From the NCBI GenBank assembly GCA_937867335.1, contig CALMKX010000128.1:1-62609 (forward strand): a stretch of 62,609 nucleotides of DNA, read 5' to 3'. The notes beneath the pieces are model-generated. The model saw only the letters and a list, made by a program, of their open reading frames with translations. It made no database searches and was not told where the DNA came from. Source of the DNA: an uncultured Acidobacteriota bacterium (GTDB lineage Bacteria; Acidobacteriota; Thermoanaerobaculia; Multivoradales; SZUA-115). This document shows, piece after piece, positions 47,214-51,007 of this stretch. The translations under genes and the position numbers were made by a program. Positions within the stretch are counted from its first letter, which is position 1. Every line of letters starts with the position of its first letter.

Positions 47214-47543
47214 ATGAACAAGCTTCTGCCGGTCCTCGCCCTCGCCTTCCTCGCATCGGTCTCAGCCTTCGCAGAGAGCTTCGTGCCAGCCTCCTGCGAG
47301 GCGCGCCAGTCGCCCGTGGCCGCCCGGGAAATCTCCAGCCCTCTCGACCTCTCTCCGGCCACGCAGTGGCAGCCCAGGCTGGCCGATCCCGGCTGCTACA
47401 CCACCTGCATCCGCAACCGCGCTTGCCGCGCCAACTACAACGCCTGCGTGGCCGCCTGCCCGTCCGGCGACACCGCATGCAGTGACGCCTGTACCGCCGA
47501 GTACGTGGACTGTCTCGACGTCTGCCGGGAACTCTGCCAGTAG
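47214..47543 (+). CDS. Secreted cysteine-rich protein 1 (helical-hairpin ladder family)
   Basis: A 109-residue precursor. The Sec signal is KLLPVLALAFLASVSAFA, with cleavage likely after AFA. A linker of about 40 residues, including one Cys, precedes a core with ten cysteines at spacings 3-5-6-3-6-3-6-3-3. The core is Ala/Asp/Tyr-rich and should be helical, with PSGDTA as the probable turn. AGAGGAG precedes the ATG. It is divergent from the kinase gene and has a terminator-type hairpin after its stop. It differs from the other members in its first spacing and in an extra C-terminal Cys. No function is known. Confidence 0.8.
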   Translation: MNKLLPVLALAFLASVSAFAESFVPASCEARQSPVAAREISSPLDLSPATQWQPRLADPGCYTTCIRNRACRANYNACVAACPSGDTACSDACTAEYVDCLDVCRELCQ

Positions 47544-47553
47544 CCCTTCCACT

Positions 47554-47578
47554 GCCCGCCTCCCGGTCGGAGGCGGGC
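47554..47578. terminator. Terminator-type hairpin between convergent genes
   Basis: GCCCGCCTCC (47554-47563) and GGAGGCGGGC (47569-47578) form a perfect 10-bp stem with a five-base loop, just after Cys-rich gene 1 and just before the end of the PQQ-type dehydrogenase gene. No real T-run follows in either direction, so it may be a Rho-aided or RNA-stabilising hairpin rather than a classical intrinsic terminator. Confidence 0.55.
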
Positions 47579-47586
47579 CTTCGCCC

Positions 47587-49116
47587 TCACGGGCAGGTGG
47601 CGAAGGCCTGGGTGTCCTGCACGGGCCGAAAGGCCTGACCCAGCGGGCTCGAGTACGTCTGATCGGCCCCGGCCTCGACGTCCACCACGTGCAGGCTCAC
47701 CTCGACGTCGGTCAGCCCCGCCACGAACACCCAGTAGCGGTCGAAAGGCGGCGCGCAGGCGTCGATCACCTTGACGAAAAGCTCCGGATTGTTCGGGCTG
47801 AAAAAGGTGAAGTAGCCCGCATCGCTCGTGAGCGGCACCGCCGTGCCCTGGCCGCTCGCTCCGCCCTCCGTGCGCCAACTCGCCTCCACCAGGAAGCGCC
47901 CGCCCAGGAGGCAGAGGGTGTTGGGGCCGGCGGTGCAGTGGGTGGGCAGCGGCGCCGCCACGCGATAGACCCGGTTGCCGGCCGCCAGGTAGAGCTCGCC
48001 CGCGGCGTCCTCGCCGAAGGTGGTGAGCTCGGCCGGCGCCGCCGACAGCAGCTCCCTTACCCAGGCGCCTCCGTTCTGTCGGGCTGCCCACACCTCGCCG
48101 GTGCAGTAGTCGCCGAAGAGGTAGGCCCCAGCGAGGGCCGGCAGCCGGCTTCCGCGGTAGACGTAGCCGCCGGTCACCGCACAGCGGCCACTCTGGTGGC
48201 CGTAGGTGAGGATCGGCGAGTTGTAGCCCGAGGAGCCGCAGGCGGGCACGGGAAATCCGCAGCCGGCCGCGGAGCCGAGGCAGAGGTCTCCTTCGAGCAG
48301 CTTCCAGCCGTAGTTCTCGCCTCCGGCGCTGCCCGCCGGCTGCCGATCGATCTCCTCCTGGCTGTTCTGGCCCACATCGCCCAGGTAGAGGTCGCCGCTC
48401 TGGCGGTCGAAGGAGAAACGCCAGGGGTTGCGCAGGCCCTTGGCCCAGATCTCGTCGAGGGGCGCTCCAGCGCCTCGGAAGGGGTTGGTGGCCGGGATGC
48501 CATGGTACGGCGGTGCATCCGGGCTCTGGTCCACGTCCAGGCGGAGCAGCTTGCCCAGCAGGCTGGAGTCGTCCTGGGCGCGGCATTGAGGGTCGAAGCC
48601 GGAGCCGCCGTCGCCCATACCGACGTAGAGGTAACCGTCCGGACCGAACTGGAGCTGGCCACCGTTGTGGTTGGCGAACGGCTGGGGGATGCGCAGCAGC
48701 ACCTTCTCGCTGGTGGCCAGAGCCCGGTTGGCATCTGCAGGCGACACGGAAAAACGGGAGATCACGGTTTCTCCCCCCGCGCCGGTGTAGTCCGCGAAGA
48801 AGAAGCCGTTCTGCGAGTACAGCGGATGGAAGGCCACGGAAAGCAGGCCCTGCTCGCCGCAGCAGCTCACCCGGTCTTCGATGTCGAGGAAAGGCTCCGA
48901 GCGCAGCAGTCCGCGCTCGAGAATCACCACCCTGCCGCCCTGGAGGGTAACGAAGAGCCGGTCGTCTCCGGCATGGGTGATGGCCACCGGGCGGCTCAGC
49001 TCAGGGCCCACCGGCTGCAGTTGGACCGCGGGTAGTTGAGCAGCGACTCTGGTCGCGGTAACCAGCGGCAGGGCCAAGCAGAAGGTCGCAAGCGAAGCGC
49101 GGGAGAGGCGGCTCAT
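47587..49116 (-). CDS. PQQ-dependent sugar dehydrogenase (glucose/sorbosone dehydrogenase family), secreted
   Basis: A 509-residue secreted protein. A signal peptide (RASLATFCLALPLVTATRVA, cleavage near AAQ) precedes a six-bladed propeller of the glucose/sorbosone dehydrogenase family: GDDRLFVTLQGGRVVI, GLLSVAFHPLY, NHNGGQLQFGPDGYLYVG and GDGGSGFDP (PQQ/calcium-site region), LRNPWRFSFD. The last about 130 residues (SDAGYFTFFSPNNPELFVKV; YWVFVAGLTDVEV) form a separate module that I associate with secreted proteins of Acidobacteriota, from memory. Cofactor and substrate are inferred from the family. It lies between two Cys-rich genes on the opposite strand. Confidence 0.88.
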   Translation of the reverse strand: MSRLSRASLATFCLALPLVTATRVAAQLPAVQLQPVGPELSRPVAITHAGDDRLFVTLQGGRVVILERGLLRSEPFLDIEDRVSCCGEQGLLSVAFHPLYSQNGFFFADYTGAGGETVISRFSVSPADANRALATSEKVLLRIPQPFANHNGGQLQFGPDGYLYVGMGDGGSGFDPQCRAQDDSSLLGKLLRLDVDQSPDAPPYHGIPATNPFRGAGAPLDEIWAKGLRNPWRFSFDRQSGDLYLGDVGQNSQEEIDRQPAGSAGGENYGWKLLEGDLCLGSAAGCGFPVPACGSSGYNSPILTYGHQSGRCAVTGGYVYRGSRLPALAGAYLFGDYCTGEVWAARQNGGAWVRELLSAAPAELTTFGEDAAGELYLAAGNRVYRVAAPLPTHCTAGPNTLCLLGGRFLVEASWRTEGGASGQGTAVPLTSDAGYFTFFSPNNPELFVKVIDACAPPFDRYWVFVAGLTDVEVSLHVVDVEAGADQTYSSPLGQAFRPVQDTQAFATCP

Positions 49117-49231
49117 GGCGGCCTCAGCATACCCGCAGGCGCGCTCATCCAGGGCGCGAGGAGCTTCGTAGCTTCGACGCAGTCAGCTGACTTCCCCAGA
49201 CAAGGACTCAACCAACAAGGAGAACCGATCC

Positions 49232-49537
49232 ATGAGCCGAATTCTCAGTGTCTTCGCCGCCCTGCTGGTGGTCGCCGCCCTCGCGGTTCCGGCTGGCGCC
49301 GAGCCCGCCCCCACTCCCACGCTCGCGCCGAGCTCCGGCCCGGCCGCCAGCCTGACCGTAGCCCTCGAAGCCGACCCGCTCTTGGTGGCCCTGCTGCCGA
49401 TCAACGGCGCCTGCATCCGCGGCTGCCGCGCCTCCCTGCGGGTATGCCTGTTCGACTGCGGCCAGTCCCCCGGCTGCAGCGACTCCTGCAACGAGCAGTA
49501 CCAGTTCTGCGCGGCGGACTGCAGCGCCACTCCGTAG
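49232..49537 (+). CDS. Secreted cysteine-rich protein 2 (canonical eight-Cys ladder)
   Basis: A 101-residue precursor with signal SRILSVFAALLVVAALAVPA, cleaved after AGA. An Ala/Pro/Thr linker runs to about residue 60, then a core of eight cysteines with spacings 3-6-3-5-3-6-3. The pattern is symmetrical about GQSPG, the turn. CX3C pairs 11 residues apart lie on one helix face, so a hairpin with four cross-strand disulfides is possible. AAGGAG precedes the ATG by nine bases. It is the cleanest member of the family. Confidence 0.8.
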   Translation: MSRILSVFAALLVVAALAVPAGAEPAPTPTLAPSSGPAASLTVALEADPLLVALLPINGACIRGCRASLRVCLFDCGQSPGCSDSCNEQYQFCAADCSATP

Positions 49538-49681
49538 TTTCCGCTCGTGCGGGGCGGCTCGCCGCCGCTCCGCCTCTTGCTTCGGTGTGCCCCGGCGCTC
49601 TGCGCAGCCTCCTCTCGCCAGTCCGGAAGCAGGTTCTCGCCTCCATCCTTGGCCCACTATCTGGCCTTACAGACAAAGCCA

Positions 49682-49710
49682 TTGAACCAAGAATTGTACT
49701 AGCGTAGTAT
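49682..49710 (+). promoter_or_regulatory. Candidate sigma-70-type promoter of Cys-rich gene 3
   Basis: TTGAAC (49682-49687), a 17-base spacer and TAGTAT (49705-49710), 50 bases before the ATG. Each box matches consensus at four of six positions. The same arrangement occurs at the matching place before gene 4 (TTGCAA-N17-TAACAT), inside a block that is otherwise only partly conserved. The preserved 17-base spacing supports function. Confidence 0.55.
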
Positions 49711-49760
49711 TCGGAGTCGAGGCTCGACTCTCACCCACCCTCGTTTCAAGGAGGTCTGTC

Positions 49761-50066
49761 ATGAAGAGAACCGTACTGGCTTCGATCCTGGCGCTGTGCT
49801 TCGCCACTGTCGCTGCCGCAGGAGTCCCCACGGCCCAGCCGGCAACGACCGCTCCGGCCGACTCGCTCGACCTCAGCGCCCTGGAAACGCCTGCGCCCGA
49901 CGCTTCGCTGCTCACCCCGGCCCCAGTAGTTGTCAGCTGCCTCAGCCAGTGCGCGGCCGTTCGCACGGCCTGCGTCGCGGCCTGTGGCACCGATGTCAAC
50001 TGCAAGGATCGCTGCCTCCTCCAGTACGAGGGCTGCACCTGCAACGCCTGTCACTTCTGCCGCTAG
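49761..50066 (+). CDS. Secreted cysteine-rich protein 3
   Basis: A 101-residue precursor with signal MKRTVLASILALCFATVAAA. A Thr/Ala/Pro-rich linker of about 37 residues follows, then ten cysteines with spacings 3-6-3-5-3-6-1-2-2. The turn is GTDVN. The final CTCNACHFC replaces the last CX3C of gene 2's core with a CxCxxCxxC end that could bind a metal or form extra disulfides. A perfect AAGGAGG is six bases before the ATG. It is nearly identical in layout to gene 4, including the signal and the C-terminus, so the two are recent duplicates. Confidence 0.82.
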   Translation: MKRTVLASILALCFATVAAAGVPTAQPATTAPADSLDLSALETPAPDASLLTPAPVVVSCLSQCAAVRTACVAACGTDVNCKDRCLLQYEGCTCNACHFCR

Positions 50067-50079
50067 CCCACAGCCCCAG

Positions 50080-50113
50080 ACCGTCGGGCCGACCCTGTAC
50101 TCGGCCCGACGGT
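50080..50113 (+). terminator. Strong hairpin after Cys-rich gene 3
   Basis: CCGTCGGGCCGA (50081-50092) and TCGGCCCGACGG (50101-50112) pair perfectly, with one further A-T pair outside, around an eight-base loop. It starts 14 bases after the stop codon. No T-run follows, so it is a terminator-like or 3'-end-protecting hairpin. Confidence 0.55.
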
Positions 50114-50254
50114 AAGGCCCTTGGCCTCAACCCGCCCCCGCTGAGAGCGGTGAGCTCTTCCAGGCTGACCGCACCAAGACTCCAACGCCCAACAGGGGGA
50201 AGGCTTGGTGGCTTGCAAGCCAAGACCGCCTATTGAATCTTACAGACAGAGGCA

Positions 50255-50283
50255 TTGCAATAAGAGATTCATGATCGTAACAT
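50255..50283 (+). promoter_or_regulatory. Candidate sigma-70-type promoter of Cys-rich gene 4
   Basis: TTGCAA (50255-50260), a 17-base spacer and TAACAT (50278-50283), 51 bases before the ATG. It lies in the same place and with the same spacing as the promoter candidate of gene 3. The upstream block TTACAGACA-AG-CATTG is shared by both copies. Confidence 0.55.
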
Positions 50284-50334
50284 TCGAGGTCGACATGCGC
50301 TTCCCCACTCAACCACCGTCCTAGGAGACCTGCC

Positions 50335-50673
50335 ATGAAGCGAACCGTCTTGGCTTCGATTTTCTTGCTGTGCCTGGCCACTCTCGCGACTGCGGAAGCC
50401 CCGACTGCCCAACCGGCACCGAATCATCCCACCACCCATCCCTGCGTCGCCGCTCCGGCTGACGCGCTCGACTTCACCGTCTTGGAGGTCTCGCAGGCTG
50501 AGGCGTCCATCGTCACTCCCGCTCCCACACTCCTGGCCACGGGTTGCATCGGAAACTGCTTGACGGCCCTGAGGAACTGCCGTGCCGCCTGCGGCACCGA
50601 TGTCAACTGCCTGGACCGCTGCGACGGCGCCTACGAGGGCTGCACCTGCAACGTCTGCCACTTCTGCAAGTAG
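50335..50673 (+). CDS. Secreted cysteine-rich protein 4
   Basis: A 112-residue precursor. Its signal, MKRTVLASIFLLCLATLATA, matches gene 3 over the first nine residues. The linker is longer, His/Pro/Thr-rich and contains one extra Cys (HPCVAAP). The core has the same spacings as gene 3 (3-6-3-5-3-6-1-2-2), the same GTDVN turn and the same end (CTCNVCHFC). TAGGAG precedes the ATG. The intervening loop residues have diverged much more than the cysteines, which points to selection on the fold. Confidence 0.82.
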   Translation: MKRTVLASIFLLCLATLATAEAPTAQPAPNHPTTHPCVAAPADALDFTVLEVSQAEASIVTPAPTLLATGCIGNCLTALRNCRAACGTDVNCLDRCDGAYEGCTCNVCHFCK

Positions 50674-50676
50674 AGC

Positions 50677-50691
50677 CCGTGCTCGGCACGG
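50677..50691 (+). promoter_or_regulatory. Short hairpin between Cys-rich genes 4 and 5
   Basis: CCGTGC-TCG-GCACGG forms a 6-bp stem with a three-base loop in the 40-base gap between the two genes, nine bases before the AGGAGG of gene 5. It could weaken read-through or protect the upstream message end. It is short, so this is tentative. Confidence 0.35.
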
Positions 50692-50713
50692 CTCTCGCCG
50701 AGGAGGAATCTCG

Positions 50714-51007
50714 ATGAAGAACGTCCGTCTTTTCGCTCTTACCGCCCTGGCCGTGGCCTGGCTCGCGAGCCCCGTCTGGGCTGAAGGGGCCGCGATTGCC
50801 GCGGCCGACCCGGCTAACGTGGCAGGAGTGCCTGCTCCAGCGATCGCTCAGCTGGTCGCCCCCGAGCCGCAGCAGGTTTCCACCGGGCTCTGCGACGCCC
50901 GCTTCAACCGCTGTGTCTACTGGTGCCAGGGAGATCAGTGGTGCATCTGGGGCTGCGAGGACGAGTGGATCGCCTGCCTTTGCAGCAACGATCCCAGCTA
51001 CTGCTGA
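50714..51007 (+). CDS. Secreted cysteine-rich protein 5
   Basis: A 97-residue precursor with signal NVRLFALTALAVAWLASPVWA. An Ala/Pro/Glu linker of about 30 residues precedes eight cysteines with spacings 6-3-5-3-6-1-6. The first CX3C half is missing, but the shared 6-3-5-3-6 core and a CxC like genes 3 and 4 are kept. It is Trp-rich (five Trp in the mature part), unlike the others. AGGAGG is eight bases before ATG 50714; the open frame upstream is a read-through. It probably shares a transcript with gene 4. Confidence 0.8.
   Translation: MKNVRLFALTALAVAWLASPVWAEGAAIAAADPANVAGVPAPAIAQLVAPEPQQVSTGLCDARFNRCVYWCQGDQWCIWGCEDEWIACLCSNDPSYC

Follow-up and report, generated by a model that had tools for sequence, protein, structure and literature searches.

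A cluster of exported cysteine-ladder proteins in an uncultured Acidobacteriota bacterium, predicted to form disulfide-stapled helical hairpins

A stretch of 62,609 nucleotides from an uncultured Acidobacteriota bacterium of the class Thermoanaerobaculia (contig CALMKX010000128.1 of assembly GCA_937867335.1; this whole stretch is hereafter the window) carries, within 3.8 kb of its forward strand (47214-51007), five genes, g1 to g5, for short proteins with a signal-peptide-like start and a ladder of regularly spaced cysteines (Cys). We consider it highly likely that the Cys-rich cores adopt the fold of a disulfide-stapled helical hairpin. Taken as a whole, our favored explanation, that the products are exported stapled hairpins acting as binding miniproteins, seems to us somewhat better supported than not, and its functional part, an extracytoplasmic binding scaffold, is offered more tentatively.

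In each of the five precursors, the signal-peptide-like start (assigned by eye from a charged n-region, a hydrophobic run and small residues) is followed by an Ala/Pro-rich linker and then by the Cys-rich core; no twin-arginine motif is present in any of the five, and the signals are of the Sec type. Because a purine-rich, Shine-Dalgarno (SD)-like stretch lies directly 5' of all five genes and their GC content at third codon positions (GC3) is of the coding type (0.79-0.90 vs. 0.91 in sdhA), the five open reading frames (ORFs) look like real genes, which confirms on re-reading what a preliminary description of the window had noted. The genes and the two related upstream regions are:

47214..47543, + strand: g1, exported Cys-rich precursor of 109 amino acids (aa); core 47394-47537 with 10 Cys; SD AGGAGA; five-rung ladder with a helix break within arm 1 in the AlphaFold2 model of the core (predicted local distance difference test, pLDDT, 93.1)
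49232..49537, + strand: g2, exported Cys-rich precursor of 101 aa; core 49412-49522 with the palindromic spacing 3-6-3-5-3-6-3; SD AAGGAGAA
49667..49760, + strand: upstream region of g3, duplicated along with g3; TTACAGACA and further blocks in common with 50240-50334
49761..50066, + strand: g3, exported Cys-rich precursor of 101 aa; core 49938-50060 with 10 Cys and a variant C-terminal C-x1-C-x2-C-x2-C; tandem paralogue of g4; SD AAGGAGG
50240..50334, + strand: upstream region of g4, related by local alignment to the g3 upstream region
50335..50673, + strand: g4, exported Cys-rich precursor of 112 aa; core 50545-50667; paralogue of g3; SD AGGAG
50714..51007, + strand: g5, exported Cys-rich precursor of 97 aa; core 50891-51004; variant with three inner rungs and one additional C-terminal Cys pair, without C1 and C8 (the outermost Cys of the eight-Cys ladder); SD GAGGAGG

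Cysteine spacing and predicted fold

The inner unit C-x6-C-x3-C-x(5/6)-C-x3-C-x6-C is common to all five cores, as the preliminary description had stated, and the mirror-image spacing it had read in g2 is exact, g2 being the sole perfect mirror among the five. The remaining cores space their Cys as 3-5-6-3-6-3-6-3-3 (g1), 3-6-3-5-3-6-1-2-2 (g3 and g4) and 6-3-5-3-6-1-6 (g5). The G-x-x-x turn that had been proposed between the arms fits only loosely: the central turns of g2-g4 read C-G-x4-C, but those of g1 (P-S-G-D-T-A) and g5 (Q-G-D-Q-W) are not strictly Gly-led.

Such spacing is not readily obtained by chance. If the outer two of eight Cys are fixed at the ends of the 37-residue span of g2, any one exact arrangement has a probability of 1 in 1.6 million, and the x6 form of the unit has one match in the window vs. 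0.00 expected in shuffles, even with one mismatch. The 5.56-Mb genome contains a single x6 form and four x5 forms, and all five belong to the cluster; DNA, pattern and profile searches revealed no further ladder paralogues elsewhere in this genome, and the DNA matches to the g1 region elsewhere came mostly from the neighboring sugar-dehydrogenase part of the query. It is true that low-complexity Cys-rich frames match parts of the pattern (e.g., L161, which we rejected as a false positive of this kind). Nevertheless, that the five are chance Cys-rich ORFs with no common origin is hardly credible and is already contradicted by the data, that is, by the signal peptides, the ribosome sites, the coding GC3, the confinement of the five genome copies to one cluster and the homologues with the same arms.

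Cys at positions i, i+4, i+11 and i+15 of an arm are computed to lie at 0, 40, 20 and 60 degrees around a helix, i.e., within 60 degrees on one face of each helix, in agreement with the earlier proposal. AlphaFold2 was run, template-free, on the g1 and g2 cores, with an alignment of five sequences (the cluster paralogues). The g2 model has a mean pLDDT of 85.6, with helices at 5-24 and 28-47 joined by a three-residue connection, and the g1 model a pLDDT of 93.1, with helices at 3-12, 15-25 and 31-52; for models built on such shallow alignments, this confidence is notable. As modeled, the two cores are very probably pairs of antiparallel helices that form a hairpin, as had been anticipated. The Cys positions are arranged accordingly in nested pairs of constant sum: 61+97, 65+93, 72+86 and 76+82 in g2 each add up to 158, and the three nested pairs of g5 to 148, its other two Cys being C-terminal. 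The sum in g1 is 171 for the inner three pairs and 169 for the outer two, with the predicted helix break located where the spacing shifts from 6 to 5, matching the change of sum. Disulfide pairing across the strands is very probable in these cores.

Homologues (see below) allow the outermost rung to be assessed. Among 63 distinct cores, a sample biased toward arms of 3-6-3 since such arms were the basis of the regular expression as well as of the profile, the arms are 3-6-3 and the turn varies from 4 to 11 residues, most commonly 5 or 6. Of these cores, 53 have both C1 and C8, six have neither and four are mismatched (Fisher p = 1e-5, and 2e-4 once doubtful ORFs are left out; the common ancestry of the cores renders both values optimistic). 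Three of the four mismatches are g3 and g4, where C8 has moved by two residues and is not lost, and g1, where the Cys before the unit has moved by two. Two neighboring six-Cys ladder genes (L164:1220-1731, minus strand), a second case of clustering, are without both C1 and C8, and in L165 the open end of the ladder is extended by further rungs. C1 and C8 thus tend to occur or to be missing together, as would be expected of a C1-C8 pair, and this joint variation is compatible with the up to four cross-strand disulfides suggested in the preliminary description.

Homologues, folding partners and gene context

When 149 genomes of the class were searched with a DNA pattern of the x5 unit, exported homologues in other genera (L014, L015, L023, L025 and L031) and larger exported proteins with the unit (L019, L020 and L034) came up, together with noise from low-complexity frames; L012 and L022 were rejected as low-complexity or noise frames. 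A profile made from the homologues, with E-values that are per genome and inflated by the Cys-rich composition, identified members in 11 of the 147 genomes searched within the class, in further classes of the phylum (L159, L160, L162 and L163-L165), and in 23 of 237 sampled Myxococcota genomes (~10%), with weak matches in 3 of 246 sampled Planctomycetota genomes. The search that had been suggested as a check has hence brought up homologues of the same spacing in other genera, other classes and a second phylum. Scanning genome contigs for a four-residue turn (C-x4-C) gave mostly poly-Cys frames and the plausible members L057, L117, L130 and L140, with named records from it used to center the Myxococcota and Planctomycetota samples, and tblastn detected no ladder genes on plasmids.

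Cys are the only residues conserved across the homologues, which take the form of lone exported miniproteins, of lipoproteins (lipoprotein-like relatives L031, L057 and L162) and of domains in larger proteins (L045, L172 and L179), with iterated arrays of the unit in L169, L171 and L182. L044, L045 and L019 are exported proteins of 300-400 aa in which the hairpin is central and the C-terminal region partly common (Y-T-V-T-T-L in two of them); they have no Pfam or NCBIfam match. The Myxococcota proteins L169, L171, L182 and L192 have long CX3CX6 arrays, which in L182 and L192 are made of repeated acidic/His-rich, CDHGYEGC-like units.

With respect to oxidative folding, the genome itself encodes an extracytoplasmic DsbA-like lipoprotein with a CPFC site. 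Relatives outside the class have a thioredoxin-like protein of the P0002/P0003 type, anchored in the membrane, that carries CxxC and TPT motifs and has no Pfam match at E 0.001. In about half of 18 loci, the next gene downstream of it, on the same strand, codes for a small exported protein rich in Cys; this protein carries CX3CX6CX3C in L203, L205, L206 and L218, and a ladder gene lies near the thioredoxin-like gene in L199 and L217. This linkage in other lineages would agree with disulfide chemistry; since our genome is without that thioredoxin, it is extended to the present cluster by analogy only. More generally, L203, L205, L206, L210, L211, L214 and L218, from several families of the phylum, show a thioredoxin-like gene closely followed by an exported protein with 8-19 Cys (~1500-2550, match orientation). 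The neighborhoods of seven single homologues revealed no common partner except a thioredoxin-like gene in two, and no enzyme motif, conserved surface residue or conserved neighbor was found for the ladder proteins. An exported Cys-containing protein with no Pfam match (L197:4298-4876, minus strand) is encoded immediately next to a ladder gene and near a multicopper oxidase gene.

Within the window, sdhB adjoins the cluster, and g1 and g2 are separated by an unrelated minus-strand gene (47587-49116), by sequence a pyrroloquinoline quinone (PQQ)-type sugar dehydrogenase, which splits the cluster. g3 and g4 were duplicated together with their upstream regions (local alignment score of 89 vs. a shuffled maximum of 55), and the TTACAGACA-sharing regions could possibly act as a common control element. 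Between these two paralogues, nonsynonymous (dN) and synonymous (dS) divergence is 0.35 and 0.46 in the core vs. 0.16 and 0.90 in the signal peptide (only 43 codons); small as these numbers are, they suggest that the cores changed relatively faster in protein sequence than the signal peptides.

Function of the ladder proteins and alternative explanations

Under the explanation that we favor, the five products would be exported via Sec and processed, and their cores, once out of the cytoplasm, would form two antiparallel helices held together by the nested disulfides C1-C8, C2-C7, C3-C6 and C4-C5, with paralogues carrying more or fewer rungs; Sec export into an oxidizing compartment is the simplest reading. 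The stapled hairpin would provide a very stable scaffold whose helix surfaces are free to vary, and duplication would have given rise to five paralogues serving as extracytoplasmic binding miniproteins, secreted or retained in the envelope, with differing partners. We favor a stable binding scaffold over any single activity because of the faster change of the core and the existence of lipoprotein-like and multidomain forms. Several observations weigh against this explanation: there are additional Cys in the linkers of g1 and g4 and odd or displaced Cys in some cores (g3, g4 and L014); the hairpin sits within larger proteins in relatives, and the functions of lone peptides may not generalize; the membrane thioredoxin-like partner is absent from the genome (E 1e-8); no neighboring gene in the window explains the function; and synteny is not kept, since in both genomes of the same family the genes after sdhB are different ones and include no ladder.

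Alternatively, the proteins might be secreted antagonists, the Ala/Pro linker being a pro-region and the released core antimicrobial or toxin-like against competitors or predators, as in alpha-hairpinins and nemertean B toxins. The prepropeptide-like architecture, the five diverged paralogues in one cluster, the faster change of the g3/g4 core compared to the signal, the antimicrobial or trypsin-inhibiting activity of alpha-hairpinins and the nearest solved folds (none significant), which include the toxin 1VIB and, for g1, acrorhagin I (6UX5), all point in this direction. However, the charge of the cores runs from -4 to +1, neutral to anionic, unlike that of most membrane-active peptides, the context offers no immunity gene, peptidase-transporter or bacteriocin gene, and neither the lipoprotein-like nor the embedded relatives are free toxins. 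We regard antagonism as possible but unlikely.

It is less probable still that the hairpins are thiolate carriers of Cu(I) or another soft metal in the envelope, comparable to the Csp proteins. The placement of Cys on one helix face resembles the Cys-lined helical bundles of Csp, and the homologue L025 adjoins a multicopper oxidase gene. That neighbor is a single case, however; no Pfam family is matched, the signal peptides are Sec-type and not Tat, no metal-resistance genes adjoin the cluster, and the DsbA-like protein would oxidize the thiols. Furthermore, C1 and C8 tend to come and go together, as paired Cys would, and such paired variation disfavors metal storage. Finally, the proteins could be redox partners, that is, disulfide substrates or reservoirs for an extracytoplasmic thioredoxin system and not rigid scaffolds, as the directly linked thioredoxin-like gene of several relatives would suggest; yet no such gene exists in this genome or near the cluster, ladder genes of the class as a rule stand alone, with no such neighbor, and a four-rung ladder is poor as a cycling disulfide, leaving this role improbable, marginally more so than metal carriage.

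More speculatively, the ladder proteins might represent an unnamed, widespread bacterial disulfide-ladder superfamily with an 11-residue Cys periodicity, three to six rungs or even iterated arrays, and sometimes a dedicated membrane thioredoxin, giving rise in some lineages to diversifying secreted binding or antagonistic miniproteins; we consider this possible but doubtful at present.

Comparison with known systems

No significant match to the ladder proteins was obtained with the NCBIfam, PHROGs and PADLOC profiles, no Pfam family matched the cores, and the defence and phage libraries gave no match; a PDB profile match to the scorpion toxin 1sn4 (E 0.046, 19 columns) was rejected as a short Cys match. 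Literature searches, which left most subscription papers outside their reach, yielded no described bacterial CX3CX6CX3C family. Because no curated family covers them, we file the bacterial ladder proteins as an unnamed family. The preliminary description, which knew of no bacterial family of this kind, stands in that no named family matches; the four-disulfide helical hairpin itself, however, has a precedent in neurotoxin B-IV (see below).

CHCH (twin CX9C) proteins are a eukaryotic family with a disulfide-stapled helical hairpin. Their CX9C spacing differs from the CX3C-X6-CX3C of the ladder, and a twin CX9C occurs in none of the five genes, so that the distinction drawn earlier is borne out. 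The Csp copper storage proteins (Csp/DUF326) are, like the ladder proteins, bacterial, helical and Cys-lined, but form four-helix bundles whose Cys thiols bind Cu(I); no ladder protein has a Pfam match to Csp/DUF326.

Alpha-hairpinins, antimicrobial or trypsin-inhibitor peptides of plants, have the arrangements CX3C-X4-20-CX3C (4C) or CX3CX3C-X4-20-CX3CX3C (6C) and two or three rungs (PMC11591084, PMC7191063), with disulfides 7-29 and 11-25 in VhTI (sum 36) and 11-32 and 15-28 in BWI-2c (sum 43) (PMC7191063). The ladder proteins share with them the (here predicted) antiparallel helix-turn-helix, the CX3C pairs, the nested pairs of constant sum, the conservation of Cys only and the precursors with signal peptides; the inner CX3C-X5-CX3C of g2-g5 (x6 in g1) corresponds to the 4C motif, and hairpins are predicted for g1 and g2. 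They differ in being bacterial and in having CX3CX6CX3C arms with a CX3C every 11 residues, eight or more Cys and four rungs; that is, the ladder fits neither the 4C nor the 6C arrangement, the 4C motif being its inner half only, and, as previously noted, extends beyond two-CX3C alpha-hairpinins. Similarity in sequence to alpha-hairpinins is not significant (7lve at E = 1.9).

The nearest spacing found in the PDB, 3-6-2-10-3-6-3 (read from the alignment), belongs to the nemertean neurotoxin B-IV (Toxin_13, PF07822), a helical hairpin with four disulfides (PMC6410017; PDB 1VIB). B-IV, in build the nearest among solved structures, has eight Cys in a disulfide-linked helical hairpin of the kind predicted for the ladder proteins, but its turn is longer and it is an animal venom peptide. 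Neither the profile match to 1VIB (E 1.4) nor the fold match (E 8.0, template modeling (TM) score 0.63/0.58, root-mean-square deviation 2.2 A) is significant, nor is the fold match of g1 to acrorhagin I (TM score 0.65/0.68), and the Toxin_13 Pfam profile matched one of 13 cores at E 3.5, below the cut-off; the likeness to B-IV is probably convergence. Animal toxins and defence peptides of plants hence already provide examples of the stapled hairpin build, which has not been named as a family in bacteria. Stapled helical hairpins are valued scaffolds, and most of those known come from venoms and plant seeds. With a bacterial ladder family there would be a further source of very stable miniproteins; it would also point to oxidative-folding partners, as yet unstudied, in the Myxococcota and in this phylum, and an extendable ladder, with rungs gained and lost pairwise, 3-6-3 arms fixed, and turn and surface free, would give a natural design rule. 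The superfamily outlined above, if real, would be the bacterial counterpart of the venom and plant-defence hairpins.

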